Part shown: piece after piece, positions 1,351 through 64,000 of the stretch
Layout of the letters: every line of letters begins with the position of its first letter
Position numbering within the stretch: the first letter of the stretch is position 1
Made by a program: the position numbers and the translations under genes
Source of the DNA: Hyperoplus lanceolatus
Lineage: Eukaryota; Chordata; Actinopteri; Uranoscopiformes; Ammodytidae
Assembly: GCA_026929865.2 (NCBI GenBank)
Contig: CM049403.1
Span: 25,419,001 to 25,483,000 of the forward strand
Reading direction: 5' to 3'
DNA: 64,000 nucleotides
The notes under the pieces: generated by a model
The model's database searches: none
Seen by the model: only the letters and a program-made list of their open reading frames with translations
Told to the model about the DNA's origin: nothing

Positions 1351-1545
1351 TGGGACGATGAAACGGACATGGCGAAGCTGGAGGAGTGCGTGCGTTCGGT
1401 GCAGGCTGACGGCCTCTTATGGGGATCGTCCAAACTGGTTCCCGTGGGTTACGGCATCAAGAAGCTCCAGATCGCGTGTGTGGTGGAAGACGACAAGGTG
1501 GGAACAGACCTGTTGGAGGAAGAAATCACCAAGTTTGAAGACTTT
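1351..1545 (+). CDS. eef1d: eef1d coding exon, exchange-factor domain
   Basis: The exon lies between TTTTTAG and GTAAGT and has 65 codons in phase 0/0. It begins [20 protein letters not shown] and contains [20 protein letters not shown] and the [11 protein letters not shown] segment. This is the core of the GEF domain that contacts eEF1A. The wording [15 protein letters not shown] fits delta better than beta, by memory of the family. Confidence 0.96.
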
Positions 1546-1594
1546 GTAAGTACCGTGCAATACATAATACAATGTAAAATGAAATGTGAATGTG

Positions 1595-1600
<6 letters not shown>

Positions 1601-1641
<41 letters not shown>
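1601..1641. repeat. (CA)n microsatellite
   Basis: This is an uninterrupted CA run of about 41 bp in the eef1d intron. It starts some 55 nt after the donor at 1546, so the transcript carries a CA-rich tract close to the splice site. Confidence 0.95.
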
Positions 1642-1643
<2 letters not shown>

Positions 1644-2268
1644 ACTCTTAAACTGATTAGGCAAGAATGAAGTAAAAAAAACAACATTCAAAGGTTATTA
1701 GTTGTACTCTTAAACTGAATGCTCCCGTGTTACACTTTATTATTATTATTATTATTATTGTTTTGGGCAAAATAAAATTATTTTAACCAAATTAAATATC
1801 CCGACAGTTACACACATTTTATTAAGTACACCTAGGGTTAAACTAATGCAGTATCAGTCAACAAATACAGTTATTTCATTTAAGTCTGTTAGTTAAAATT
1901 AAATTGTACTGTGGGGTTAAATCACTGAGGTTAGACTTAAAGAATGTCTCTCAATATATCGTTACAAATTGAACCACAAACTGCAGCCTCAGATATGACA
2001 TTAAGCTGAATAATCCACCCCACAACCATTTGATCAAAACCTGAACATGATAGCCTTAAGGGAGTTGGGATGTATTATTGAAATGCACTTCCTTTTTTAG
2101 ATTGGTGTACCTAAATAAACTGCCAACTTAACATACAATGGGAGTAGATCTTCCACGATGTGGTCAAAATGAGGCTAAAAGTAGGGCAGAAGTAATGTTA
2201 ACATCTGACATCTTGGTTTCCACAGCCTGTAAACCAGTTTCAAGTTTCTCCTTTTTGCCCCGTTTCAG

Positions 2269-10683: not shown

Positions 10684-11326
10684 CTACTCAAAGGACAGCA
10701 GGTCCGGATGGTGCTCTGAGTCTTCGGAGCCGAGCCCTGTGCCTTTACCACAGGGGTGGGCGCCGTTTCCCAGGAGGACCTCCTCGCCCAGGCTGATGCG
10801 GCAGGCCAGTTTCCCCTTGCACGGGGTGGAGGCCAGTCGAGACTCGGGCATCGGTGCCTTCTGCCAGACGTCGCAGGGTTTGGGATCTTTGTTGATGAGG
10901 TCTGGTACAGATAGCTTGAGCTGGGGCTGACGCTCTTCCTCCTTCTCCTCCCCACTTTCTTCAGTGCGGCCCTTTTCCACATCATTTTCTTCACTACGTA
11001 GCAATCCGTCCGCCTTGCCGTTGCTCTCCCAATCATCAGCGGTGGTTTTCTTCTCCGCCTCGGGGCCCGAAAGCATCTGGATCTCCCCTGAGCCTCCATC
11101 TTGGTCCTTCTGGGCCTGCAGCTGCTCCTCACTGGTCCTCAGCTGCTCTGTGATGAGGAGAGGAGCCTTGTCAGGGGGAGAGTCGGCCGTGTCCGGGAGA
11201 GAGGAGACCACGGGGTCAGAGGAGATCATCATGTCCTGTGTGGTCTTCAGCGCCCGAGGCAGACGCTTCTTCCCCGACGGCGGAGGGGGGTCCAGCCGAG
11301 GGAAGGAGTCGAAGGAGGAGATGTGA
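10684..11326 (-). CDS. c1orf226: C1orf226 homologue, terminal exon
   Basis: The exon starts after a CTTCCTCCAG acceptor (minus strand). It completes a Ser codon split over the intron, then reads HISSFDSFPRLDPPPPSGKK and ends HHPDLLSFE before TAG. It gives 214 residues (104-317). Middle residues are rich in Glu, Lys and Ser (EENDVEKGRTEESGEEKEEE) and likely disordered. LKLSVPDLINKDPKP and the LLSFE end are the conserved parts. The plus-strand open frames overlapping it are shadows. Confidence 0.9.
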
Positions 11327-13655: not shown

Positions 13656-13780
13656 CTGTTTCCAGTGGTCTGGTTGAGTTGCTCCATACAGCTCCACACG
13701 GCACCAACGTTCTTGTTCACCTCAGTGACCCCAATGTCGCCGAGGTGGCTCGACTCCTTTCTTCTCAACAAGTCATTTAC
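13656..13780 (-). CDS. c1orf226: C1orf226 homologue, middle exon
   Basis: The exon lies between a TGTCAG acceptor and an ACAG|GTACAT donor on the minus strand, is 125 bp, and enters in phase 0. It encodes VNDLLRRKESSHLGDIGVTE, then VNKNVGAVWSCMEQLNQTTGN, and leaves two bases (AG) of a Ser codon completed by the next exon. The VNDxLRRKE and GVTExNK motifs match human C1orf226. Confidence 0.92.
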
Positions 13781-13923: not shown

Positions 13924-14109
13924 CTTTGCGCCGACAGCCTTGCCCAGATTAATGGCATTCTTAAGCCTCTGTTGGCCTCCGGAGGACGGAGAATCCACAG
14001 AGCTGGAGCCCTGGTTAGGATTGGCTGATGCTGGGGAGCGTCGGGTCGAAGGCTGGCCCGGCCTGGAGATCTGAGGACTCTGTTGCTGGGCGACGGAGTT
14101 CTCAAACAT
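13924..14109 (-). CDS. c1orf226: C1orf226 homologue, first coding exon
   Basis: From the ATG at 14109 it encodes 62 residues: MFENSVAQQQ, a Ser/Pro/Gln-rich linker, then QQRLKNAINLGKAVGAK before a GTTAGC donor. The exon itself begins at 14120 after a TTTTTCCCAG acceptor, leaving 11 bases before the ATG. In the frame of the protein those bases read (A)TT GAT CAA AGT, with no stop. The ATG was chosen because MFEN is the start of the human protein. Confidence 0.88.
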
Positions 14110-14120
14110 ACTTTGATCAA
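14110..14120 (-). other. Open extension upstream of the C1orf226 ATG
   Basis: Between the acceptor and the ATG the exon has 11 bases, starting with two bases of a split codon and then Asp-Gln-Ser. The phase fits the donor of nos1ap exon 33217-33382, which leaves a single A; joined they would read Ile-Asp-Gln-Ser-Met-Phe-Glu-Asn. It could be either 5' UTR or coding in a readthrough isoform. Confidence 0.65.
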
Positions 14121-14323
14121 CTGGGAAAAAGAGAGTAGACAGGAGAAAGAACGAGAGAGATAGATATATGAATACAGAGCAGGATGTGTAGGATTTAACA
14201 GAAGGTGTAGATGTATTTGCTTTTCTAACTGCACATAGCTGCGGCCCCTTCAAGCTGAAGACAACACAAATGGGATGTTTGCTTTCAGAATGGGATGCAT
14301 AAACACAGTTTTACAGGGAACCA

Positions 14324-14620
14324 AAAGGAATACTCCACTGAGGGAAGGAGATCTGTTGACTGGTCTCCGCACAACATTGCTGACAACTCTACTCCCGTCT
14401 TGACACTTGTTATATCTATGAAGCTCTGCTGGCAGTAGTGTCTTCAGCAGTTTTTCTAGGGGAAATTGCTCTCAGTTGGAATCCATTGTAACTGTAACTG
14501 TGAATCCAAACTGTCTAAAGCTACAAAGAAGCAATCTATCTGTTTCAGGGTCTGCACCTCACACGCCAAACAGCAAGTTCTTGATAATCCAAAGGTGTCA
14601 TTTCAGTGGAGCATTCCTTT
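14324..14620. mobile_element. Short inverted-repeat element, about 297 bp
   Basis: The left end AAAGGAATACTCCACTGA is mirrored by the right end TCAGTGGAGCATTCCTTT with one mismatch over 18 bp. No coding capacity is seen. It lies just upstream of the C1orf226 first coding exon. Target duplication is unclear, so the superfamily is open. Confidence 0.65.
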
Positions 14621-17600
14621 AAGTAACCATGTCATGTTCCAGTGTCAGTCTGCAGCTTTCCACCAAAACACACTGATGTTGCATCACAGAAAGATCCAAG
14701 GGTTATTTCATGAGTATGCATACAACATACAGTATGAGAGCCAGATGGCAGTGTACTAATGCCGTATGCAATGATCATGGAATAATGCAGAAGACACCAC
14801 CTGACACATGCACATCATTTGCTGAATGAAGCAGGAATGGACCAAAATGCAGGATCAGGAAACAGCCAAACATAAAAAAGGGGGAGCTCATGTTGTTTTT
14901 CAATCCACTTAAGACGGAAGATCTTACCTCTCGGAGAGAAATGTTTCTCGGAAGGCATTTAATGAGACATAGACATATCAGATTTCAGATCATTTTACCC
15001 CTAAAGATGCAGTTTATTGAGCTGTCTCGGCTTACAGGAATGATGCTTATTCATGACTTCTACAACAGAACAAGTCTGGGGAGGTAATGGGTAAGAGATA
15101 GATCATAGGTACATACTATCTGAGGAGTGCAGTGACTTGGCCAGATAAATGGAGGGAACATAACACCATTTGGAATCAGATGGAGAGGAAAAAGCATTTG
15201 AAACACCTAACCTTGGCTTCACTTTGCACACAAAAGCATTCCACTTACTCACCCTGATCGAGAGATCTACAAGAACACATTAGCCAGAGGCCGGTGGAAA
15301 CGTGATCCAATATTATGAATCAACATGATACAGAGAGGGCATGTGGAGTATAACTTCAAGGAGATAACAAGAGAGATGGGAGAAGAACAGAGAGAAAGGC
15401 TTACATGTACTTCACAGCATGCAGGCACCCATTTCTGGGAGTTAAATATGAAATTAATCACACCAGCCAATTGAACCCTCAGGGGATCTTTTGATAAATG
15501 TAATTATATAGTAAATTGTGTTTCTGTGTGGTAGCTGATAAACTGCACCACACTTATTTAATTCAAAGGACTGCATCAGTGGGATGGCAAGATGAAATAT
15601 AATTGAGAAGTCCAGTTACAATAATGTATGAGTTTGAAGGCTTATCAGAGGGAAAACACTGCATAGGTTTTAGTCTATGGTTTTAATACAATGAAGCAAC
15701 TATACGTTTGCCACCTTGGATAACTCACTATTATTATATAGAACAGAACAAAATGATCATAACACAAGATTGTAAAAAGTTATTGTGACTGTGTAACTGC
15801 TTCCGCTTTGTAACATAATGAGATACAAGAAACATTTAATTTACATGCTCTGTTCAATGTTTAGTCTGTCAAGGTCCTTGATGGTGTACTGACCTTTTAT
15901 AAAGGTCATCGAGTGATTTCACTATCAATATTGACAAATTGCACAGGCTATAAAACATCCTTATTGATCCCTCTAGATAACAAGGCCACATATTCCTTCC
16001 ACTTCGACTCCTAATTGCGAGGTAATGGATGGACTTTGTAGTAGGCCTATGGTAACCCCACTGGATGGCTTCATGAAGGGTACCAGAAAGAGAAGATGTT
16101 AGTGCAACATGCCTCACGATGTGCCCTAGGAAAATGCATGTTAAATTCAAAAGATTTTAATCTTTCGCTGCTTTTTTCTCGACTTGTCTTACAGTAACAG
16201 CCGTGCTGCAGAAAAGGTGAAACCTGCTGCTTGGAAATGAGCCCAGGTGTCTCAGTCTGGCTCATTTACACACAGATGTGATTTAGCATCACTATTTAGG
16301 ATCATCTCTCTGTTGGACTGTCCCTGAGCCAGCTTTAGAGTCCTTGCTCTCACAGCTCCTCTATACTCAAAAATGAATGCAAATTTTGGTGATTTCTCAA
16401 AGGCTGCCGCATTAAGTGCTGCTTGCAAATGCCAGGATACCCACAGTGACTAGAGGTCACCTCGTCCGTCAATCACATGCACTGAAAAAGATGCATACCA
16501 TTAGTGAAATCCAAAGTAGCACGAGGGATATTGAAGTTACAGCTAGTTATGCAGGGAGGGAGGGGATAAAGTTAGTGCTACAGTTAGTACGGTACTTTTA
16601 AAGATATCTATTTTTTGTATGGCATTGTGCCTTCATTTGAAATTGATGGTAGAGATACAAACATGACATGGTAGGAAGACACTTCAAGACAGAGAGGAGG
16701 TTGACATGCAGAAAATGCCCAATTCAAACTGGGGGTGTTGGGGTCTTATGGTATTCATTCATAACTTGGGTACTGGACGTTTCTTGGTTCAAATTTGCTG
16801 ACTATAATAAACCACAAATGTGCCAAGATTGTTCATTGCCTTGCAGAACAAGAGAGTGCTTTCATCAAATACATATCTTCCAATTCATGTTTAATTTCAA
16901 AATACAATACATTGCATCTAGAGAAAAGAAAGATCCTACAAATACTGTTACCTTGAGGTAACTTATTTAAATTTAAAGTGAAATTATTCACAAAGGCTTT
17001 TATCGAGCTTGGATGTATGCAGTAATTGATTCTTAGTGTGTTCAGGGACTTTATTCAAAGTACGACCACACTGGATCAGTGGTAACAGCTGTGAAACTGC
17101 TGGGATATGTGAAACAACAACGCTATCAAAGATAATTATGTTTTTCAGGTTAACACAAAAGGCACAAGGAGGGTTTAGGTACAATAATATTATCTCATTA
17201 AATAATTCAAGTTCATTGTCCATTCCAGGTTGCTTTCGTCACCAAGAACAGACATCTCAACAACAAGGATGAAAGATTAATCTCATTAAATCCAAACTTA
17301 AATTTAGGCCATATGCATCTCCGTCTAGAAGTGCCTAATGAATGGATTTTTTTTCTCCATTTCTCAATGGTTGAATCATAAATGAAGACACTACAACATC
17401 TCTCCAGAGATAATGCTATTTCAACAGCCACAGATTGAGAGATGTTACGTTAGCGAGTCCTGTTTCCTCCCAACAGGACGGTCACTCACTCACTGTTTCA
17501 CAGATGCTGCTGAGATTCCCTGTAGCGTATCTGCATCGCAACTCAAAACCTAATTTGGGCAAACATTTAATTGATGTCCTCCAAATTATTACATTTGAGA

Positions 17601-18190
17601 AGCAATTGCTAAATCAGCCCACACTGTCAAGTGCATATTTCAGATAGGCTGTAACAAAATCTGTTTTAAACTAAGCAGTCACTATGAATGAAATGAAGTT
17701 TCAACCTGTAGAAAGGTCATTAAAATCACTAACTGTGTCCTAGTTTGAGACGTTACACCAAAGACAGACATGGATATAAATAAAATACATTTGGAGAAAT
17801 GCAGTCCTATTATCAAGGAAGTTACAATTGTTACTTTGTTGTTACATAAACTGTATGGCTACAACATGAGCCCTATCTGTTTCTTTGCATGCATTTTCTC
17901 AAATTATTACCATTAAAAGAATACCGAATGGAAATTCCCTGACACCTCGTTGCATATTTTTCTATGATTTCCAAGTGGGTCCGTGGACATCAGAGACATC
18001 CTACATCCTAGGAATATGTAAATCCCACTGAATCTAAAACAATGTGTGTCATGCCTGTGTGTTTTCGTTTTTACGCCATACTGTATCTTGGTCTCACATA
18101 TCTTATGCAGTCTGTAATCAAAGTGAATATACAAGCTAAGTTCTGGAGGACTGTGTTACACTGGCATATTACTGTGCGTTTCCGTGTGTA

Positions 18191-18226
<36 letters not shown>

Positions 18227-19488
18227 GATGCCTTTTAATTAGAAACACGCCTGAAGGATTTTATCTGTAAGAACAATTGTTCATTAACACTGAAACAAGG
18301 ATTTATTTCTCCCTGTCTGTCTTCAGGAGCTCCTTCAGATTAGCAGTATCATACAAACAAGAGTCAGATAAGAAACAAATACACACACAGAATGTTCATG
18401 CAGTTATACAAATCCTCATCTACTGCTACTCTAACACACATTTAAAGTTCCAACATGCTTTGTATCTATGGTACCCAGTTCAAAAACCTATAGTGACACT
18501 CAATTGTATAGTAGCTATACAAACTCTTTGGTGTTCAATCAATGTGTAATTACTCCTAACATTCTGTACTTCGATGCGGACTTACAGACTACTCTCACTC
18601 CTTTATTTCTTACTTAACGATAATCAATCATTTTCCCTGCAGGGTCAATTTTCACAGACTTTCTCTATCTTAACGAGGAATAATGATGAAGCATGATGTA
18701 ATTATGATTTCAGTTTTTATCATGTGGAACTCTTAATTGGCCAAATCAGCTCTCTCAAGTGCCTCTGTGACTCAACATCGAGCAGGCAGCCAGCTTGAGG
18801 TTATTAGCTCAGCTCTGCTTTGGCATCACGGATCAAAAGTGCCTAACTTTTAGCTTTGTTTAGCTTTTCTTTTTTTTTTTAAACGATCATCATCATTTTA
18901 ACAATCTTCTTAATTGGACCTTGAGTTGAAATTCAAGCTCAACCTTTGACCAGGACGAAGATGACAGCTTGTATCTTATTGGCTAAATACATGATACATA
19001 AATTCAAATGAAACCTTTTAAGCAAATCCTAGAGGAAAGGCTGTTGCTTATCTGCCAAAATAATAAAGAGGATTCCAATTTTTGTTCTATCCTGGTATAG
19101 GGATATTTACATTTTTGCAGTATTCATTTTACATTTCTAATCAAAGTTTCGCCTCATTTCATTTGGTCTTTGAAGCACTGAATGGATTGACCATAAACAG
19201 CAGAGCGAATTGATGCTCTGGTGCAACAGAGTGTCGGGCTGAGAGGATGAGTGACCTGAAACACTCACAAAGACACAAACACAGCTTTACTCAGGCAAGA
19301 CAGACAGGGTCATTATCACTGATGACATACTACATTGAAAATCCTCACTTGGCTACATTAAGATATGCACGTGTGGCTTGATGTGTGCGTGTGTGTGTGT
19401 GTGTGTGTGTTTGTCTGTGAGGAATAGTATTAGTGTAAGTTAGGCCAATCATGACTGAGGTTTGAAAGCAGGGAAGAAGAATACCTTG

Positions 19489-19489
<1 letters not shown>

Positions 19490-19573
<84 letters not shown>
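19490..19573. repeat. (CA)n with (CACG)n core
   Basis: A CA tract of about 84 bp with a central run of GCAC units. A separate TG tract lies about 80 bp upstream (19384-19410), so the two could pair as an imperfect hairpin. Confidence 0.93.
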
Positions 19574-19578
<5 letters not shown>

Positions 19579-22500
19579 TTGGAGCTGCACATCAATTTTT
19601 TTACCTGGGTTGAGTGTTCATTAAAATAGAATTATTAAACTAGGTTGGCACTTGTGGGGGTGTATGTCAGACTGACGAGGAAGTGTGTGCAGGACTGAAC
19701 TAATGGATGCAATTTCTGATTTAGTCTGACATAACTCTGACTGACACGGTGCATTTCACATCATCCCTTTACTTTCCAATTTAAAAGATCAAATGCAATA
19801 TTAATTTATATTAGGGGAGTCACAATCCCAATTGTAGGTTGGACATTGCCATGATCTTCCAAATTTGAGGTGAAATTGTTGATTTAGCCCCAGCGCCCAT
19901 GGGTCACATTCGACAGGCGTTCCAAGAGAGGAAAAACACACACACAGCTTGCAGTAGCTGCGAGTGACCTACCTACAGTTCCTGCCAAAAGAAAACCATG
20001 GCAACTACTAAAACTTTAACTGAACTTGAATCTGCTCATCCTTCTCTGAAGAAAACAACAGTACTTTGCAGGCTATGCACATGTCCTATTCAAGGATGCC
20101 CCGCGGGCAGTATGTGTGTTCATATGTTTGGATGGTAGAACCTTTTTAAGTCAATCAAACATACTATATTGAAAAAAATAACCTTGAAATCTTGATAAGC
20201 AAATCAAATGTGCTTTCTGTCCAGCACTCGCTGGTGGGTCAGGAGGAGCCCACAGCACAGCAGCAAACCAAAACACTCCCAAGATGACTCAGGCTCCATC
20301 TCCAAAGCTGAACCTTCTTCCTATTATGTCATGGTCGACCTGCCCTGCTATTCTCCTCTTCAACAGGCCCGACTTCATCGTAAACAGAGAACGGCATACT
20401 TTGAATTCCATCCCCGAACCATCAGTCAGCCCGTATCTTGTCGTGACATTCTGAGCCTCCAAGTCTGACCCTTGAGAGTCTGGAGGGAAAACAGAAGCCC
20501 CATTAACAAAACACACCTGTCCTTCTCCTCCTCCTCCTCCTCATCTTTCTCTTATTCTACCTTTTCTGCCTCTCTCCACCTCAAGTAACCTTTCAGCAAA
20601 TTAAGCCTTTGATGAGTGAAGCTAATACTAATGAAAAAACAAGCATCTGAATGGGCAACCCTAAAATGCAGCACTATAGCGAACACGAATGACGCTTTGC
20701 TAAGGAAATAAGACCATGCAATGGTTAATCCCACATAATCTCCACTGAATCCAATGCTGATTAAATTTTTTTTCTTCAAAGGTGGAGACAAGACAACCTG
20801 ACCTGACTGTTGAGCAGAAGAGCAATGACTGTAGCACACCTAGGTCTGTTGCCATCAAATGATCTTCACAACAGACGGACTGACAGACAGGCAGAGAGGC
20901 AGACAGACAAACAAACACACAGACAGACAGATTTACGAACAGAGGCAGTAAGGTTGACAAAAAAATCACATTTTCTTTTTTAGTACTTACTTGTTGAATA
21001 TTAAATGAAGTGTAAAATGTGTTACATGGAATAATAAATGGGAAGCACCATTTTTCAAGTTATACTGGCACTTAAGCTGGTCCACTCAAATTTTACACTG
21101 CCAAATTCACTGTTAAAGCAGTCTATTGTTTCTGTCTATGGTTATGGTTAGATATATTTTTATGTTGTTGCTGTGTGCAAACAATTGGTTATTAAACATA
21201 AGATTGAATTGTATGATGTTTTTCTCCACAAAGTCTTGATAGAGCAGACAGAGTATCTTCGTAGACACCAGTATGTCTCATGATAAGGCAGTCATGCAGG
21301 GTTAGATAAGACAGCCAAAGACCGACAGGACACAGTGGTGATTGTGGATGGAGCCATTTGAGATCAGGTTTTTCCTACCAGATCAGCAAGAAATACCAGA
21401 GGGAAATGTATCCAGTAGTTGCTAAAATACTGGATCAAAGTGGTAGATTTACTGACCAACATAGCCATGATGAGACGTACTTTGCATTTTTGAATCTACT
21501 TTTTATGCAAACTGAATCCCATCTAGACATTTCCATTGCAGAAACTCTTTGACGCAAAAAAGCATCCATAGTAAATTGTCTGTTTTATTGACATACTTCT
21601 CAGACTTAGTGTCTTGCTCTACATTTCAATATAAAGACCCACAAGAGTGGAACTATCATAAAATATGCTTAGATGCTGTTCCAACCTCTTTACTTACTGT
21701 GGCCTCAAAAGACCACAATGCATTGCAGCCACGGCACACGTTCTGTTCTAATTAAAGGGAACACATAATCAGTTTCTTCTCAGATGGATAAACTTGTTCT
21801 CTGTAACTTTCTACACTGTGACAGTAATGACATGCTTCCTCTTTCCCCATGCATGGAACAACCCACAGCCACAGGGCAAGAGATGACTCCACTTGCTGGC
21901 GCTTGTTTGTAAGCATTCTGCAAAATTATTGACAAAGTCTAGGCAGTTAATTACAAAACTCCATCAGAAAACTATACTCAAGATACATCAAACACTGCAA
22001 TTTAGCTACAGCACTGGGAGTTGTGGACTTTGCAGACATCATATCTGATATTAAGCAAACAATATTTGACACCTTTAATAAATGTTCTCAGAAGATGTCA
22101 TAATGTACAGAGTTATAAAAACAACCACATGTATAAGTTATACTGCCTGCTTTGCTGACTACAGGAACATTTGGGAAGACAAAAGGGATAGCATAAAAAA
22201 ACAGCAGGCTACAGGTTGTAGCCAGCCATGTGTGAGTGCATTCAGTCTCCTCCTTTTCAAAGTCATGGGATCAATAATTCATTCAGCACATTTTGCCACA
22301 TCACTGTCTGTCTGACCCACAGAGGCTCCCCGGAGAGTGTGAGTGTCTGAGAGGCAGAGGGAACAGATGTAGCAATGAATACAATGGAAAGAATCCAGGA
22401 GGGAAATAACAAGCCTGTCGCCCAGTGCTCCGGGTTACTGCCTTCACTCCATTTCACATTCTCTTTGTGCTTTTGGATGCTTGACAAAAAGTGAAATCAC

Positions 22501-22822
22501 GTTTTCCAGTCCTGTTTCCTTTCCTAAGGCAGAATTCAGAATTTTAGATTTGGAACTGGGATTGAATTGAGCAAGGGTTGGGTAAGGGTTACATTAAGGG
22601 GTTAAGGTTAACGTTATGTTTAGGATTTAGGGACACTATCATAGCCAAAAGTAAGTGATGTGTGATTATTGAAAATCTGCTGCTACAATGGCCTACTCTC
22701 TCCATTTTTGCTCTTATTCTGCCACCAGAGCATCAGTAAGGATTGATGCTGCATGATAAGGCCTGACTCGCAGGTCTGCTTGGCTTTTTGCATGGGTAAA
22801 CTGTCTAAACAGTACCGACACA

Positions 22823-22943
<121 letters not shown>

Positions 22944-23943
22944 TGTAAGAAAACAAATATTTTGATTATCATTGTGTGTAATAATAATATTAAGATTTCC
23001 CTTCAGTTCATAAGGGATCCAGCTCAAACCGTAATGAATCTGACTACATAAAAGTGCTGTTTGTTGAGGGGTGTATTATTCGTCCACAGATTTTTGAACA
23101 TATTGCAAGAAAGCAGTTAATGAAAGACATAAAGGGGCCTTACAAGGGAGAAACACTGTGTTTTTCCGAGACTATTTGGCTGAGTCTGTTACAAAACAGG
23201 AGGGGAGCGCCGTGTCTCCATGTCTGGGTGAGATTCATCTTGAATCTTGATACGACACATCAAACACTAAAACAAGTTAAATATTACTGACTTGAAGCTT
23301 AAAATGATCAAAGGCGTCTTGTCTTTCCTCTTCAGTTCATGTTTGCCTCAGTGGGATTTGTTCTTTTCAAGGTTGCAACACCCACCTCCACTTTAAATTC
23401 AAAATGTGTCTCATTCATCAGCCTGCTTTTGTCAGGGTACAGTGCGCGTTAAGAAACACAAAATGCAAGACATTGGACAAGACAGACGGGCTTGACAGAC
23501 ACATGGGCGGAGACGGGCCTTCAGCTGTGCGACCATTTCCCATCCTTTTTACATCTGGAGCTTCACATGTTTCAGCTTAAACACCATGTCGCTCAGCATA
23601 GCCTGTAGCTTTGCATCCTGGGAACATAAAAGCAAGTCGCCACCACACCCAGATGTCGATGTGCAGCACGGAAGCTAGAATGAACATGATCTATGCATGT
23701 TTGTATGAACGGTGAGACAATTGTGACAAAAACGCCTCCAAAAGGAAATCGAAACTGACTTTGCGGCGGCACCCAACAGGTATGACCTGTGAGTGGAAGG
23801 TCGCCAGTTGAAATCCAATGGCTTGAAGGGATAATGCAGTCAGTGATTGTGAATGGAATTCTGTAGGAGGGCAGAAACCGGTAGTATACACAATAGTCTT
23901 CTATGCTTACACGTGACAGACATAAAAAGTTAAAGTGCCCATG

Positions 23944-24165
23944 GGCTGCAAGTAAGGATTATTTCTGTTCAAAATCCGTCATTCATATTTTGAGTGAACT
24001 ATTAATTGTTAGTCTGTAAAATGTCTGTAAAAAAACTAAAATGGCCATAAAATGTGTTTATAGCTTCAGATGAAGGCTTACTATTAAAACATGACACAAG
24101 TGGTCAATTCTCTCTGCACTGTTGATTAATCAGCTAATTGTTAGTTATTTAAAGTACACTGACAG
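23944..24165. repeat. Degenerate dispersed repeat
   Basis: It begins GGGCTGCAAGTAAGGATTAT and ends near GATTAATCAGCTAATTGTTA. This resembles, from memory, a widespread teleost repeat that begins with GGGCTGCAACTAACGATTAT. Ends and target duplication are eroded, so the call is tentative. Confidence 0.4.
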
Positions 24166-24747
24166 CTGAGAAATGTATGTCTGATAAGAGATAGAATCCC
24201 GATTAAAACACACAGATTAACACATAACGAATAACCAGCTGCAGACAGCAATCATTTGTTTACAGTATTACTGGTCTGAATCTTAGCTGTTTGGGTGGAG
24301 TCCTGTTTGGCTCTGATCATCAGTGTTGAGCTCAGAAGATTAATCACTTGACTTTAGAAGTCCTTAACTCCCCCTTATCCTCTGGTCATTAATTTCAGCA
24401 CTGTGTCCGTTGTGTTTGTTTATATACAGTATGTGACCCACTAACTGCAGCGGCCATGTTTCTGTCAGCACAACCTCACATTAACAAAACAAGCTCAGCT
24501 AACTCCTCCTGAGCACACTAAATACTCTGTGGCTGTTTATTTTTGTGTGCCTTTTACTTTGTATGTACTTTCATTTTAACAGACTATTGTGCGGTAATGT
24601 CAGATGCACAATCTGTGAACGCTTGAACAAATTAAGTGGACAAGCAAAAATTAAACCCATATCTTATTCTAAAACCATAGGCATTGATAAGCTGCGGCCT
24701 TATGTCTATTTTAATATCAAGCACACATGCAATGTCCTTATTGTTAA

Positions 24748-24795
24748 GCACTTACAGCTGCATTTCTTGTATGAAAGGTGCTGTACACATAACGT
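24748..24795 (+). repeat. LINE-like 3' tail fragment
   Basis: Sequence of the form GCACTTACAGCTGCATTTCT followed by TGTATGAAAGGTGCTGTACA resembles the conserved 3' tail of fish L2-type LINEs and the SINEs that borrow it. Only the tail is recognisable. Confidence 0.45.
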
Positions 24796-27700
24796 TGATT
24801 ATTATTTTTTTAAATGCCAATTATAATATAACTGGCCGTACAGTACTATTTATATCCTGATAGCTACTACTTTACAATATCTGGGAGTATTAGGCCATTG
24901 TCGGTAATGTAATACATAATTTTTTGAATCAAGGTGAAGCAGTTCTTAGCTTGGTATCGGTTTGTGTATGTGTGTATTTAAATGTGTCCCTGCAGGTGAC
25001 AGGCTGAGCTTGTAATGAGGCATATTGATTTGTGGTGCTCCCTTGCTGTCGCCGCAGTTAACCCCAGTTTCAAACAACACGTCTGTGACGGGGAAATCGA
25101 TACAAGTCACCAAAGCCTGCTCTGCTTGGTGGGAAACGTGGCCCCTCGGACGGCTACAACCCAAAGCCCCTTCAGACAATTCATTAACACCTATAGTGCA
25201 ACCACAGAGTGAGAGAGACTGGAGCAAAGGGAAGAGAAACAAGATAAATGTATGGGCCAAAGGTTCCAGTAACAAGGAAAACAAGAGTGCCGTTGTGTGA
25301 CTAGGAATATTTATTTAAATGAGGCTCTCTGGAGAAGCTCTAGTCTAATTGGTGGTTGGGAGCCAATTCAAAGGCTGAAAAGCTGTGTTGTTGCCATATG
25401 GTATTTTCCTGATGAATCAATAAGTGAAAAGCAGTTAAATCAGAGGTGTTTGCTGCTTGTGTCCGACTGTGTATACTTGGGATTTTGACCATTAAAACTT
25501 GAGAGGCATAGCGATCCCACAGTAGCCCCTTCGGTCATATTACTTTACAAGTTGCATCTTACTTTTATGTTTTTTCTTGTTTGTTAATTTTTAATACAGA
25601 CAGTCAAGCTCAATGATGCTCAAAATGAATAATGAAAGTGTAGGAGAGCAACTTTCACCCAATGAGTTCAATAAGCTACACAGGTTACCTTGCTCACTAC
25701 AGCCCAGCACTACAAATATGCGAACCATGGGGTTTGTTATGGATGCAGCTAAAATCATATTATGGGATATGCATGGTGCCAACTGCCCCAGCTGTCTAAG
25801 TTATGGTAGATGACTACGACTAATCTCACATTCGCATGGACAAACAATAAACCCCACATACACACACATCTTCAGCTTGCCAGAATGTGTGTGTGTATCC
25901 TATGAATTCAATCCAGGTTGATTCAACAACTACATAACATTGTAAAGATGAGTTCAAACTTTTAAACTTTACTGAACCTGCCACACAAATAAACAAAATA
26001 TCCCTTCTGCATGTGATCTCACTACAGACCACAGAAAAGACGATTAAATATTCTGAAAATCTTTCTGAAAAGCTGCTTCTGCACCATAGGGACTGATCCA
26101 CACAGCCTCTGTCAAGGCAAAAGGCCGAGTAGCAACAAGAGACTGTTTAGAAAATACACCATGTCTGGCATATTGAAGAGGTCGGAGGAAGATCCGGGTT
26201 TAACAGATGACAAACAATAAGGTTCAGGTCAAACATGTGAGAGAAATATAGATGAAAAGACAGCTGGAGTATTTCCTCTAGGGGCTAGAGAAGAGGAAAA
26301 GTGAAGACAGAGAAAATAAATGTAGCATGAAGAAATGCAAGATAAGACATGGCATTAGCTTTAAGTAAATACTAATTATGTGTTTGTGCGTGTACTCTTA
26401 TTTCTTCAGTTTTGATAATGTCCTTACAGGGGCAAAGATAAAAAAAACTTTGTCACACCTTGAATGAAATTGTTGAAATATCTAAGCATGTGTTGATGAA
26501 AAGGATTATTTACTTGATGGATGACAAACTTGCTCAAACTCAGGAAGGAAGAACGAGTGATTTCTCTCTGCGTAACTCTGTTTCAAATAGTCACATTTGT
26601 GAGGTCGAGAGCACACGAGGGAGGATATGAGTAATTCAAATGTAAATCATCTTCACATTATAAATTTCAAAATGACTGGTCTCCCTCCAGACATGCCCTT
26701 GTCTCCAGGCTTCCAGTTAACCTCTTTCTATACGGAAACTAAAAAATGGGAGAGCCTTAAATTAAAGTAATTTCTCTACCTGACAATGTAATACACTCTT
26801 TGATTAAATACGATTATTAAATCACAAGTTGGGGACACCTTTTTTGAATTATTGCAATAGCAGTGTGAAGATGTGTTTAAGTGTTGATTTATTGTAACAG
26901 GTTTGAATATATATTTTTGGACGATTTCAAGGACTGTTTCATAACATTTTAAATTATATTATGGGACAAATTGATGGCTTCAGCTGCAGGAATATGATTT
27001 CATTTGCATTTTTATAGTTCACAGGTCCAATTTAGAGATACCATGGAGAAAGGCGAAAGATATTAATAACGGTTATTCAAATCTCATAGAAATGAGCTCT
27101 TTTCTTCTCTTTTGGCCCAAAGGCGAGCAGTACCTTCCCCTTGAATCGCTGTACCTTGAATTGATGCAAAAAAATATATTTTTATAAAGTTTATGGCTAA
27201 ACTTGTATTCTCTTATAAAAATGTTATAAGATTAAGCAAATAAGAGAGAAAGAAAATACAGATGATCAGAAGAAATGAAGACGTGGAGAAGACATCTGTC
27301 TAAATGCCGGATCTGTTTTTTTGCAAAGTTAAAAGAAACAGTGATTACTTCAGGGGAAACTAACCAACTTTTCCTGATGGCCACAGTGAGATAGTGGTTA
27401 AAATCAAAGGGTAAGGTAGGTTTTTCTTACAGGTTCATTTCACAGGAAATCGACATTTTGGACCCAAGAAAACATCAATGTGGGACTAAATACTATAGTC
27501 TGATTATTTTGAAAGAACCACAAATGCTCCAACAAACTTTTCAGCTATGATTAGGCAAAGTTAGAAAACACTTTCAAACAGTCTCTCAGAGGAATATAGC
27601 GTATCAGATAGAATCTCTATTATCCTTTAATACACTATTACCCTTAGTGGCTAACAACGTCAGTTTTCTGGACGCTCACTAGTTTGATCCTGTACTAAAA

Positions 27701-29582
27701 CTCTTTGAAACAGATAGTGAGCACATTGAGAATTGGCCCATAGTTCCCTTTTAAATCTCTGAAAACATCAACCATTGCCAAATTCTGGCCTCTTCTGAAT
27801 TGAGTTTGACAAAAGTGCTGTGATAAACTGGGGAATCAGTACATAGAAAAAACACTGAGCTTTTCTGTTGGAACAAAATGAACACTTTAATTCTGCATTG
27901 TGCTTGGAGGCCATACACAGAGCTGGGTTTCAACAAAAAAGAGACCACTTCGGGGCTGTCATCTGTGGGCTGCTGTTTCTGGCACAAGTGGAAGAGTTTT
28001 TTTGTTTTAAGGGATGAATAACAGAAACAAACGGCGTCCCTCGAGGTCCAACTAATCCTGGTTTTACATAAAAAAATTAGGAAATTTGAGGACAAGTGCA
28101 CACATGCTACGGCTACCAAGTCAACAAATTGTGAGGAGACAAAATAAAAGAGGGCTGCTTGAAGAAGTTAAGGACGGGGCTATTCTCTGGGATGAAGTAG
28201 AAAAAAAAAAGTTACATACAGGTTTTTTTGTCTAAAAATAGTATTTGACTAATTTTGAGCCAAGCAAGAAAGGACTTTCCTTCTCCAAACATAGAGACAG
28301 TTAAACAGTTCCTCCCAAGATTTGGCTGAAATGCTTATCTTTGCTCATCGGAAGAGTCACTTTTCACTCCAGCAAAGACAAGAAGAGCTCATCGGTCTCT
28401 GAAGGCCCAAACCCCTGTTATCTTGTTGCTGCAAGGGCGACAGTGACAAACTTAAAGCTTGCTCCGGAACTAACCTTAGCTTCTGGTGGGATGTTCATGC
28501 TACATCGAGATATCTCCGTGACAAAGTGTTGTTTCCTGATAAATCTCAAATTAAAACGTGTGTGAGTGAGTGGGTGGGTGTATAACGTGTACTCAAGAAA
28601 AAGAGGCAAGAGAAAAAGGAAGGAAACAAGGAAACAACTTTTAAGTAATAGGTGTATAAGCGTGAGTGTGCATATAGATTGGAGATTAGATTCACGCAGT
28701 TGTCTCTCTTGAAGACGTGTATTAATGCTTTGACCAATGGGGTGATACCTAAGGTGAAGGTGGAATCTCTAAAGTGTGAAGAATTTATAATCTTGCTTTG
28801 TTCACGTGAAATTGACTCTAAAAAAACCTGCATATTCAAAAGGGGGAACAGACAACTAATGTGACAATTACAAACATATGCGCTGCCTCTTTGACTGTGA
28901 CGGCTTGGACTCAAACCTTCATTGTTTCTGGTGCCTCTGTACATTCATAGAGCTCTCTACCTAATGGATCAGTGTTTTTGGCTCCAGTTGAAACTACATC
29001 AGTTAACTCAAGCTGTAGTCCTGATCAAGGACTGTCTGACCGTCTTGGTACTTTAAACACTGTTAATAATAGTAAATAAATAATTTAACAAAGAAAATAT
29101 ATTTGCAATATGTTATAAGTTTGTATAGCAACTTATCCAGTACAATAAATCATTAAACAAGGTAATGTCACTAATGGAATTTGGCCACTAGTTGCAGAAC
29201 ATCTGTATATTTTTTTTCCAGATGATATTATGAACGTCTGAGTGACTGATATGTTCAGGAACCCTATGATAGCCAACCAAGACCATGAAATGTAGTTGGA
29301 CCAGAGCCAGGCTACTCAAATTCTCTTCACCACTTACAGTGGATTTATGTTCATCCATTTATCAATAGGAGTCTTCCCTCTCTCTTATATGTAACTGCAA
29401 GTATATCACACCAAACATATCGGTGTGAGCCTTGCATACATAATTGTGCACGTTGGACAGAGGCTAGTTCACTACATGGTTAATCCTATAGTTTGAAGGG
29501 AATGGACAAAATCAAGGTGAAGGACTATTGGGTTTTCAACTCAACAGGATTCTTCAGTTAGGAGAGCAGGTCAGACAAAGCG

Positions 29583-30187
29583 TTACACTGATATTTCGTC
29601 TCCCAGACAGTCGGGAGTTCCCTGTCTGTTGAGGACATTGAGCAGCCTCAGCGTCTCCATGTCCGTCCCCCAGCCAAAGATCTCCATGTCTTCCCCATCG
29701 TCGTCCTCCCCCCCCTGCTCGTCATCCTCATTGTCATCGCTGCTGTCCGTGTTGGACTCGTACTCTGAGGCGATGCCCGACTCGCGGAACCTGCCAAACT
29801 CCAGGCAGGCCGGAGGTTTGACGAGGTCGAGGGACAACAGCCGGTCGGCGGTGCCCGGGGACACCTCCAGACCGCCGCCCTCCTCCGGCCCGTTGTCGCG
29901 CCTGATGGGAGTGGGGGGCGAGGGGGGGAGTCGAGGAAGAGGAGGGGGAGGCCCCGGCATGAAACGGAAACACTCCAGTTTGAGAAGACACTGTTCCCTA
30001 CCTAGCACGCTTCCCAGGGTCCCGTTGGAGGGCGAGAAGGCGTTGCTGCTGCCGTTGGTCCCGTCGGCGTTGCCCAGCGACGGCAGGTCCAGCGTAGACA
30101 GCTCGGGTTTGGGCGTGGTGGGGTCGCACATCACAGAGGGAACTGTCGACCGGAAGGTGATCTCCAGCAAACTGTCCTGAGATCCCA
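29583..30187 (-). CDS. nos1ap: nos1ap terminal exon with PDZ ligand
   Basis: After a CTCTTCAG acceptor, the exon joins the A left by the previous exon to make Met, then reads GSQDSLLEITFRS. It continues through CDPTTPKPE, a Gly/Asn/Ser linker, CLLKLECFRF (ECF fits the internal ExF element described for nNOS binding), a proline-rich run (GPPPPLPRLPPSPPTP), RFRESGIASEYESNTD, a strongly acidic stretch (SSDDNEDDEQGGEDDDGED) and LLNVLNRQGTP, and ends DEISV before TAA. It gives 200 residues after the shared Met. The proline-rich and acidic runs are longer than in the human protein as I recall it. Confidence 0.95.
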
Positions 30188-32387
30188 CTGAAGAGGAAAA
30201 GAGGAGACGAGGTAGGAGATTTTTATTCATTTAGTCAATTGTTGTGAAAAAATACACACAAACTAAAACATACAACAATGAGAAACTAAACAACAACAAC
30301 AAACAAACAAACAGTATCCTCAGTGAGATATACGCAACAATAGAGTGTGATGAATGAGCAGAGGGCCAGAGAGTCCCCTCAGCCCTGATTTAAATGCATC
30401 TGCTCCCCCACCTCCTGCTGATTCATGGGGGAATAATAATGCGTACGGTATAGATTCTGAATTGTGATGGATAGCATATTACTGCTCCTTGAATATTCTA
30501 GTAAAAATCAATCATTTAGTTACCAATAAATCACTATGTTTTTGCATTGGGTAAGAAAAAAAAAATATTTCAAAGCATTACATCATCGACTCAGTAACAC
30601 ATGTTTTGCTCCCTATGTATAAGAAAACAGACCTGAAGTTATAAAGAAAAAAAAGGGAGACACATAAATTTAAGGAATGCTCCCTATTTCCAGTTTCAAA
30701 TGCTAACCCCTTGTAAGCATGTCATATGAAAAGTTTGTCTTTTGCTCCTTCTTGATGGACACAAGCTATAACAAATCTAAAGTTGATCCAGGAACTCCAG
30801 TTAGAGATAGGCTTTTCTATTGGCAAACTATTTTGTCTTTCTGTAAGACAATTACAAGGTTAACATTTCAAATGCTTCCAGGAAGATTTTGCATTGCGCT
30901 GCAGCCGAAGCTAGATTCATCTTTTTTGTTGCTGAACGTCCATGTGTTGGCATCACCTCTGCGCCAACAGACCGTCTCTATTTAAATTACAGTAATATTT
31001 TAAAGGGCTTTGTTTTTCTCACCCAAGTTGCCCTGAGTGCAGCAACCTGTAACTACTACCGCACTGTCCACCTACTTGAAAATGTGTATTTGCTGGCTTA
31101 CTGAAGCTTTTGTGTATTGCCATATGATCAAAGCAGCGAGAAAAAAAAAGTAAGTAGGTTGTTATATTATGTTTACATCTTTTTTGAAGGTATCATTTTG
31201 TCTAAGTACAAACGTGACAATATCCAACCATATAATATTTCCCACCAGGGAACATTCATTTTGTAGAATAAATAAATGTGCACGTCTACTACATCCGTCC
31301 GAGACTTTCAAGGTGTTTTCTCATGCAAGACACTGAACCCCGAATTGCTTCTGAAATTTGAAAGCAATTTGGATAAAAGCAATTTATAACTAGAATCCAT
31401 TTATTTGTGAACATAGCCTTTTGCCATGACTTTGGGTCATCCTTGAAATCAAGTGCAGCTGTAGTGATTCAAGGGGTTATCCCTATCCCATGGGGTGTGG
31501 TTAATGTTTCACATCCCACAGAGAAGTGAGACTTGGAAAAAAGAAAACAGATATTTCCAGCAGAGAACTCCTTTAGCAGGCTTTCTAGCCGTCGAGCAAA
31601 TAGTTATGCTCCAACCTAATGCATTGTATCCTCACCTCGTCTCATGTAAAAAAATAAACAATGTCATCTTCATTTAAAATGTGTCTCCATTTTACTGTTT
31701 TCCTGACCTTTTAGGAACTGAGGGTACTATACAACGAACAGCATGCAAAGGTGGCAATGAGAAAACACACCTTCCCAAATGAGATTGTGAATTGTTTGCT
31801 GAAAAGATTAAAAAAAAAAATTGTTTCTCGCAGGGGGACAAGTGAAGGGCAGCCTGAGCTGTGATGGTGCAGAGAGAAGACTGTCCACCTGAATAGCTGA
31901 TGAACAGACCAAACAATGTGTGACGCTGTGGGGAGAGTGGCGGAGACGACAGAGGGCATTTTGAAAATAAAAATAAAAAATAGACAGGTGTGTGGTGCAT
32001 GATAAACAGATAGGTGAAAGGATCCAGTCTCATACTGATACTCTAGCTTTAATGTCGGGATTTCCATTTAAATAGGCCTGTTTGGTTCTACAGTACTCTC
32101 TGCCTGCGGTCTGTTCTGTCAGTGTGTGGCTTGCTTCTCTTAAAAAGACATGAGGTTGGGGGTGAGTTAAGGAAATTCATCATACATTTACTTTAATTAT
32201 GATCCCGCCATGCATGCTCACCCTGCTGTTGCCATTACATTAATGTGGAGCTGCATCTCATTACATACAGTCGTGCCAAATGGCAAACAATAAGTACATC
32301 GCTCATCAGTCTTTAACCATCATCCCACCCCTTAATTAAATGACTTCCAAATATAGATGCAAATCTTTTCTGAGTTTTTCTCATTAA

Positions 32388-33003
32388 AGAGGACCTATGA
32401 TACTTTTCGACTTTTATGACCTATAAACGTTGTTATAATGATTTATAGTCATGTTTAACAATACTAGAGTATCAAGTAATTACGTACATGCATTTTGACG
32501 TATTCCCTGCTGACCGTCTGGGGTGGCTGTGCAGAGCACTAAAAACTATGGCAGCCAGTCGAGCCGAACTTGTTCAAATTTCCGGTATGTGTGTGTCACC
32601 AGATCTTTTTGCTATATATGGTCAGGCAAGCTCCCAGGTTGCTATATATAGCAGGGGGTGACAACACCAGACCAGTGCTCGCTTAGCTCAGCCGGTAGAG
32701 AGATTGTTTACGAAGTAGTAGACCCGCGTTCGCGTCCCGCCTGGGCAGATTCTTTGCAGACATTTAGAATCACGACTTCCCTTCGCAAGGTAACAAATCA
32801 CAACGGAGTTGGGTTTGCAGGAAGGGGGGGGGGGGCGGAGATGGCAGAAGCAAAGTGTTTACAGAGCCTGCTGGATCGCCAAAATAAGAGAAAGAGCTTC
32901 CCGAAAATCTAAATAGTTTTTTGTGATGTGATTCGTGTCAGGTTGCTCTATAGCAGTTTTTAACAAGAAATTAAGACCAGAAAAGTAGTATAATAGGATC
33001 TCT
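32388..33003 (+). mobile_element. piggyBac-like non-autonomous element, copy 1
   Basis: A 616-bp element flanked on both sides by TTAA (32384-32387 and 33004-33007), the target duplication of the piggyBac superfamily. Ends are inverted: AGAGGACCTATGATACTTTT on the left and the reverse complement AGAGATCCTATTATACTACT on the right. A relative lies at 34507-35551 in the opposite orientation and shares both ends and subterminal parts, for example CCGTCTGGGGTGGCTGTGCA in this copy. No transposase frame is present. Confidence 0.85.
32680..32753 (+). repeat. tRNA-like stretch inside the element, probably pseudo
   Basis: The run holds an A-box-like TAGCTCAGCCGGTAGAG and a B-box-like GCGTTCGCGTCCC 33 bases later. 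A weak anticodon stem (ATTGT/GTAGT) with loop TTACGAA would give anticodon ACG (Arg). The acceptor and T stems contain mismatches, so a working tRNA is unlikely. It is more likely a tRNA-derived SINE head captured by the transposon; it is not found in copy 2. Confidence 0.5.
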
Positions 33004-33216
33004 TTAAAGAAATTAACTATGAATGAATTAGGATGGTTTGGCCACATCAATTTAAAGAAACTGCCAGACCATACACTCACTGGTTTTGTCGGTAGTGCTA
33101 ACCTGTTTTTTTTTCGAGATGTACTTTTACTGTACATCTCAGCAACATGCATTTGTGGAAAATAAACTCCAGCAAACAGTGTGTGTGAATGATGTCTTGT
33201 GTGATGATCCACTCAC

Positions 33217-33382
33217 TGGAGTTTGGTCCAATCATCTTGGTCTCCAGCTCTTGGATCTGCTTAACCAGCAGGGAGATGTGCTGAAGCAGGTCTTTGTTCT
33301 GAAGCAGCAGCTGGTGGACCCGAGCCTGGGCCTCTAGCCGTGCCGTGGCCTCTGCACTCAGCTGGTCCTTCAACAGATGGAC
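33217..33382 (-). CDS. nos1ap: nos1ap coding exon, coiled-coil segment
   Basis: The exon lies between a TCCTCAG acceptor and a CCA|GTGAGT donor on the minus strand, is 166 bp, enters in phase 0 and leaves one base (A). It encodes [40 protein letters not shown] and [15 protein letters not shown], a regular heptad pattern of Leu, Val and Ile typical of a coiled coil. It is almost identical to the human segment as I recall it. The acceptor's pyrimidine tract is provided by a (CT)n repeat in the transcript. Confidence 0.96.
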
Positions 33383-33484: not shown

Positions 33485-33865
<381 letters not shown>

Positions 33866-49053: not shown

Positions 49054-49080
49054 ATGCATATGTGCGTGTGTGAAATGCAC

Positions 49081-49242
49081 CTGTGCCACAGCAACGTGTG
49101 TCTGCTGCTGTTGCTGCTGGAGCTGCTGGTTGAGGAGTTGGATCTGGTGGTGGACAGACAGGGGGCCAGGTGGAGGCAGCGTGCCCGATGGAGGGAGCAG
49201 CATCCTGGGGCTGGCGAGCAGCAGAGACACCTCCTCTGGAAC
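49081..49242 (-). CDS. nos1ap: nos1ap coding exon, poly-Gln segment
   Basis: The exon lies between a TGTCAG acceptor and a CAG|GTGCAT donor on the minus strand and has 54 codons in phase 0/0. It encodes VPEEVSLLLASPRMLLPPSG, a proline-rich LPPPGPLSVHHQIQLLNQQ and LQQQQQQTHVAVAQ. The motif ASPRMLLP and the Gln run followed by VAVAQ match human NOS1AP. The donor is weaker than consensus (C at +4). Confidence 0.95.

Positions 49243-52585: not shown

Positions 52586-52659
<74 letters not shown>
52530..52659. repeat. (CA)n microsatellite with interruptions
   Basis: About 130 bp of CA repeat interrupted by GACACGCACGC and GGCACGC units in its first half. Confidence 0.95.
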
Positions 52660-58977: not shown

Positions 58978-59121
<144 letters not shown>

Positions 59122-62850: not shown

Positions 62851-62935
62851 AGTTCATATTTTTTTAGTGAGTTTCACTTCCTTGAGATCATTTCTTTACA
62901 ACGGGAAACACACACACTATTGTGGGATGATTTAC

Positions 62936-63105
62936 CTTGCTCTCTGAGTGCTTGACTTCAGCTGCTTTGGGTGTGGCGTCCAGGTCAGTAACTCCTCTAT
63001 TGAGGGTTAACTCCTCTTCTGCCGGCACCTGGCTCACCTCCTCCGCATCGATGTCCGTCTCCTCGGTGACGGGCGCCGTCTTCTCCTCGCCCGTTAGCTC
63101 TCGAG
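62936..63105 (-). CDS. nos1ap: nos1ap coding exon after the PTB domain
   Basis: The exon lies between a GGCTCAG acceptor and an AGCAAG|GTAAAT donor on the minus strand, is 170 bp, and starts with two bases of a split codon. It encodes RELTGEEKTAPVTEETDIDA, EEVSQVPAEEELTLNRGVTD and LDATPKAAEVKHSESK. EETDIDA and RGVTDLDA match human NOS1AP. Human has LEFSRGVTDLD where this protein has LTLNRGVTDLD. Confidence 0.94.
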
Positions 63106-64000
63106 CTGAGCCGAGGAAAGTACACACACATACAGGTGGATAAGCACGCACGCCTGCATACACACATGTAGTCATGAGCATGTTCACACGCACACATGGA
63201 CGGACACACATGAATACAGTCGATTAAGAAACAAGTTCCATAGAGCCATAGTATACAGTACTGTATGCATGATTAAGTGCTTGATTAAGAGTTAGGCATG
63301 GGGCATAAGAACATCATCATCAACATGTGCTCAAAATGTCTCTTAAACATACTGGAGTCATGTTACCTTACATTTAGTTATGAAACAAGTATTGTTATTG
63401 CATCACAAGTAGGAGGAAAAACAAATCAAACAGACTTAAAAGATAAAAAAAAATTGAAGGTGATATAATGGACAAGCCAAGCCTGCAGCCATGGTGACAT
63501 GTTTAGGATGTAGGAATGACTGGAAAGATGCAACAATTCAGATTGAGGCAATACCAAATATATCAGGAAATCAATACAGGACTGTAAGTTAGCGAAAGAG
63601 ATAGCGTTTTCCCTCACAAAGATATTGGTGATCATCCTGAATCACGATTGTCCCTATAATTGAAATTCACCCACACTCAACATATTGTCAGTGATATTTA
63701 TCGCAATTTCTCTATTACATCTTGTATCCTCTCATCCCTAGTGTAGACTTATCATATGTCCCAGCTGGTCAGTGTTACAACTCTTAAGCAAATTAACAGT
63801 CAAGTTAGAGATAGACCTGTAATACAAAAACAAGTAAATTGAATGCAATGCTGCCGGCACTCTCTTGTTCCATGGGTTTTTAAACAGCGTTGTAATTACT
63901 GTTAATACATTTTTAATGAGAGCAGCTGGAGCACATTGGATAAAGACTGTGTTTACGTTGACCCAGTTGTTATTAACAATGGGGATTAACAATAGTGCCC
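63106..64000 (-). other. nos1ap intron, 5' side cut by the window
   Basis: Unique AT-rich sequence with no exon recognised. The PTB-domain exons are expected beyond base 64000. Confidence 0.6.

Follow-up and report, generated by a model that had tools for sequence, protein, structure and literature searches.

The C1orf226 exons in the 64,000-nt stretch of Hyperoplus lanceolatus DNA analyzed here (the window) are very probably alternative last exons of nos1ap that together form its distal end, judged from their sequence and arrangement. This reading holds mainly because a long form, NOS1APc, is already known in mammals, and the comparison supports the arrangement in the window as the fish form of NOS1APc. 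The genome has two further nos1ap copies. We consider it likely that the two ends have been divided among the duplicates. The window copy, on contig C9, would have both, the C12 copy only the nNOS-binding end, and the C18 copy, an obligate fusion, only the end of the C1orf226 type.

NOS1AP is usually described as an nNOS adaptor, and published accounts link it to QT interval, schizophrenia, and nephrotic syndrome. We identified the gene by tblastn and by searching the genome (806.7 Mb) with the human protein. The human sequences in all of our comparisons should be taken as approximate. For C9, these searches found the coiled-coil exon, PTB exons that lie upstream of the window, and a last exon with DEISV at its end, as expected of NOS1AP (CAPON). 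The coiled-coil exon, exon 9 in human numbering, is the final exon common to the canonical and long forms. It follows CTCCTCAG and ends ...AACTCCA/GTGAGT, and its 166 nt make 55 codons plus one base, A. The canonical last exon opens with TGGGATCTCAGGAC and contributes TG, so the join reads A/TG, or Met. The canonical tail of 201 amino acids contains GSQDSLLEITF, LECFRF, and RESGIASEYESNTD, and DEISV at its C terminus is the PDZ ligand. Features of the three copies are collected in Table 1.

Table 1. Exons and intervals of nos1ap and C1orf226 in the window (window positions) and at the C12 and C18 copies (contig positions)
Feature	Position	Strand	Description
C1orf226 exon C	10684..11326	minus	PRLDPPPP...HPDLLSFE stop; first base is third of codon; DUF4628 2.1e-51
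C1orf226 exon B	13656..13780	minus	VNDLLRRKE...TTGN; phase 0 to 2; DUF4628 5.1e-18
C1orf226 exon A	13924..14120	minus	TT, DQS, MFEN...LGKAVGAK; phase 1 to 0; DUF4628 2.5e-13
Interval between the two alternative ends	14121..29582	minus	15.5 kb
nos1ap canonical last exon	29583..30187	minus	Proximal alternative end; stop at 29583
nos1ap coiled-coil exon	33217..33382	minus	Phase 0 in, phase 1 out with A; tblastn against human NOS1AP (approximate sequence)
nos1ap coding exon, upstream	49072..49224	minus	Approximate (tblastn match limits)
nos1ap coding exon, upstream	62924..63106	minus	Approximate (tblastn match limits)
C12 canonical end	23416477 to 23415951		Terminates LGDEMAV
C18 coiled-coil exon	21976632-21976422		Ends in phase 1 with A
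C18 exon A' (middle)	21974333-21973997		337 nt, open; phase 1 in, phase 2 out
C18 last exon	21962128-21961570		559 nt; PKLDPPPP...KRASRTL as exon C; same intron phase

Exon A, the first exon of the distal end, is preceded by TTTTTCCCAG and has its own acceptor. It contributes TT, and the join reads A/TT, or Ile, followed by DQSMFEN with no stop. The introns among exons A, B, and C are GT-AG. The coiled-coil exon can therefore be spliced in frame to exon A, which is the structure of the NOS1APc class. The initial annotation had proposed this from the leftover A and the two alternative completions of its codon, and all of its coordinates proved exact. It had also claimed that skipping the canonical exon would replace the nNOS-binding C terminus with 317 C1orf226 residues. 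That count was reproduced from the Met of MFEN, and the whole long-form tail is 321 amino acids beyond the 55 full codons of the coiled-coil exon, again with no stop. The joined window fusion matched DUF4628 (PF15429) at 1.1e-95 (320.7 bits; the Pfam cut-off is 26). When the window's protein sequence was searched against the genome, none of the 10 candidates scored was a second full C1orf226 copy, and we found no solved structures relevant to either tail.

The acceptor at 14120 is a good one: it ranked 10th among 3910 AG sites on the same strand, and the four other acceptors of the locus ranked 1, 3, 3, and 5, by a simple ad hoc splice-site score rather than a trained model. The phase match alone is weak evidence because one of three phases fits, an agreement expected by chance about 1 time in 3, and because the acceptor lies only 11 nt from the ATG.

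Some other features of the window were noted. The frame of the canonical last exon (29583-30230, minus strand) is open upstream to an intronic ATG at 30230 (MNKNLLPRLLFSSSVGSQDS...), and a short form would be possible if transcription started there. About 200 nt before the coiled-coil exon is a (TG)67 repeat (33581-33714, minus, the sense strand), and further long sense TG runs are at 58979-59118, 52590-52657, and 22825-22938. UG repeats are TDP-43 sites. TDP-43 binding motifs have been reported in NOS1AP introns (PMC9576154).

At the other end of the window, an EF-1 beta/delta gene (406-906 and about 1351-1653, plus strand; EF-1_beta_acid 9.2e-11, EF1_GNE 3.9e-27) is convergent with C1orf226. 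A large open frame at C9:25414883-25416274 resembles the long eEF1D form.

The genome search with the coiled-coil exon and canonical tail (seven candidates scored) found the two further copies, on C12 and C18, and PTB exons are present in all three. In the fetched DNA, all seven canonical-end motifs were found at C9 and at C12, but none at C18. The C18 search covered the coding strand for 56 kb downstream of the coiled-coil exon, and the genome search also found no canonical nos1ap exon on C18. However, the Pfam DUF4628 profile had a weak match (E 0.59) on the strand of C18 nos1ap, 14 kb beyond the coiled-coil exon. The matched sequence is an exon resembling exon C; none of 1000 shuffles matched exon C as well, and tblastn gave E values of 0.004 and 0.001. 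The C18 coiled-coil exon, a middle exon (A'), and this last exon join into 368 codons with no stop. A' is unique in the gap between the C18 coiled-coil and last exons, where no other stretch of 300 to 500 nt had splice sites as good and the same phases, and there were none in 438 kb of background. The joined C18 tail matched DUF4628 over residues 107-295 (E 2.8e-5), at 24.3 bits and so below the Pfam cut-off of 26. This suggests that it is a weak relative of DUF4628/C1orf226, though under the curated cut-off.

The roughly 112 residues encoded by A' match no Pfam family, and its likeness to exons A and B is limited to the first codons. Homology of A' to exons A and B over its full length was not supported (z below 0), and a motif test for NLGKAVGAKVNDLLRR gave a P value of 0.43.

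The first codons include a heptamer common to both copies. Exon A begins T-TGATCAA and A' begins A-TGATCAA. We spotted this after viewing both exons, and the chance figure is a guide only: in the window and 20 fetched stretches, TGATCAA occupies bases 2 to 8 after 2 of 2657 acceptor-like sites and 5 of 32,959 AG sites. The two acceptor-like sites are exons A and A' themselves, because both qualify. In the fusion the heptamer encodes Asp-Gln. In C9 these codons precede the Met of C1orf226, and C18 lacks a Met at that position.

The C12 copy has the opposite end. Its coiled-coil exon, too, leaves phase 1 and an A, and is followed by the canonical end. A home-made profile detected nothing resembling DUF4628 in 70 kb around C12 nos1ap, 56 kb of it downstream (best E value, 1.9). 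A genome-wide search for the DUF4628 family (four candidates scored) found C9 and, weakly, C18, and none on C12. Two genes lie downstream of C12 nos1ap (C12:23376828-23408175): a DDR2-like gene that includes F5/8 type C and tyrosine-kinase exons, one of its exons being 7.8 kb away, and a gene resembling HABP4/SERBP1. In human, NOS1AP and DDR2 lie close together.

Therefore, within the fetched DNA, C12 and C18 each lack a different alternative end. A four-taxon tree placed C9 with C12 (support 86, 281 columns) and C18 apart, with an approximate human row and rough exon edges. Among the matches listed in a synteny comparison of the three copies (ORFs in fetched flanks, three pairs), those besides nos1ap were apparent repeats. 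From the end types, both nos1ap ends probably predate the duplications, and C12 and C18 would each have lost a different one. A literature search (teleost or zebrafish nos1ap, paralogs, isoforms) found no published account of nos1ap ends divided among fish duplicates. What is new here is the end types of the two extra copies; the mammalian long form was already known.

The initial annotation had referred to such a mammalian isoform, and it is real. The noncanonical isoform NOS1APc contains C1orf226, is about 90 kDa and endogenous in MCF7 cells, and is the prevailing PTB-containing form there; it has been cloned, is detected by an isoform antibody, and coprecipitates with KANK1 (PMC11607453). 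Its mammalian partners are KANK1, Scribble, and YAP (PMC11607453, PMC5320711). Described as an extended splice variant, it binds YAP in lysates of rat brain and of 293T cells, and it also associates with phosphorylated YAP (PMC5320711). Also in favor of the alternative-end reading, C1orf226 and NOS1AP are two of only seven transcripts coregulated by TDP-43 and other hnRNPs (PMC9576154). A review names three human NOS1AP isoforms, none noted with C1orf226 in the portion available (PMC10647562).

Human C1orf226 is catalogued as a separate gene, and the fish exons might be one too, transcribed with a spliced 5' UTR from a promoter of their own. The acceptor 11 nt before the ATG would then serve the UTR, and the frame match, at about 1 in 3, would be a coincidence. 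PMC9576154 handles NOS1AP and C1orf226 as two genes, the C1orf226 ATG has A at -3, and the Pfam model begins precisely at the Met of MFEN, as expected of a separately annotated protein. However, a human NOS1APc protein exists (PMC11607453), C18 has the tail in frame and showed no canonical end in the 56 kb downstream, and the heptamer before the ATG is common to C9 and C18. The 15-kb gap also has no CpG peak, which is a weak test. The highest 400-base CpG observed/expected ratio in 14121-29500 was 0.69 (GC 0.41), and in the 3 kb before exon A it was at most about 0.36. At the first exon of each nos1ap copy the sequence is richer in CpG, with best values of 1.10, 1.08, and 0.96 (GC 0.43, 0.55, and 0.45). 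Under a stricter rule (ratio of 0.6, GC of at least 50%), no window in 14121-29500 qualified, but two of these three first exons, which served as controls, would also fail the GC part with their best windows. Nor is a CpG peak proof of a promoter, because windows within nos1ap introns (about 36.3-38.2, 41.2, and 53.9 kb) also reach ratios near or above 1. CpG-poor promoters exist. The CpG content thus speaks weakly against a CpG-type C1orf226 promoter, though not against every promoter type. We regard a separate gene as improbable, but an additional internal promoter may yield a short C1orf226 protein from MFEN.

Readthrough between neighboring genes is common, and the fusion transcript might be an occasional chimera of this kind, functionless in fish. 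NOS1AP-C1orf226 is indeed listed among fusion transcripts in prostate cells, where three treatments each lower the fusion, NOS1AP, and C1orf226 alike; its class is given as "0->1," with wording ambiguous on in-frame status, and the two genes are termed nonadjacent (PMC4667522). However, occasional readthrough does not fit the prevalence of endogenous 90-kDa NOS1APc in MCF7 cells (PMC11607453) or a C18 paralogue that retains, as far as found, only the C1orf226-type end. We consider it very unlikely. The initial annotation's suggestion that C1orf226 is best seen as an alternative 3' half of nos1ap is instead supported by the C18 paralogue and by the shared heptamer; the absence of a CpG peak before C1orf226 adds weak support.

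If C1orf226 is the distal end of nos1ap, we infer the following for fish cells. The canonical exon would be a proximal terminal exon that has an end of its own, and a shared pre-mRNA ending there would encode the nNOS-binding protein. Splicing over this exon before cleavage would expose the distal acceptor and join 33217 to 14120. The long form would have the PTB domain, the coiled coil, and the 321-residue DUF4628 tail, but would lack the nNOS ligand. Human NOS1APc suggests by analogy that it would serve as a junctional and polarity adaptor (Scribble, VANGL1, KANK1, and YAP) rather than an nNOS adaptor. If some NOS1AP products bear the C1orf226 tail, variants and knockouts assigned to "C1orf226" or "NOS1AP" need reinterpreting. 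C18 would encode a naturally occurring NOS1AP that does not bind nNOS. One-ended fish paralogues would allow a clean separation of nNOS-dependent from Scribble/KANK1/YAP-dependent functions, and single-paralogue knockouts could separate NO-dependent from polarity/Hippo functions.

The teleost duplicates mitfa and mitfb split alternative isoforms, and nos1ap would be like them in that alternative forms of one ancestral gene are shared between duplicates. However, the mitf forms differ in their starts, whereas those of nos1ap differ in their last exons, and nos1ap has three copies, one keeping both ends. Window exons A, B, and C each match the DUF4628 family (PF15429), but the fish frame is open upstream of the model's start at MFEN, into nos1ap. 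Like mammalian NOS1APc, the predicted fish form runs from the PTB domain through the coiled-coil exon region to C1orf226 exons, which replace the canonical last exon (PMC11607453). Unlike NOS1APc, which is described with two C1orf226-encoding exons (PMC11607453), the predicted fish form has three.
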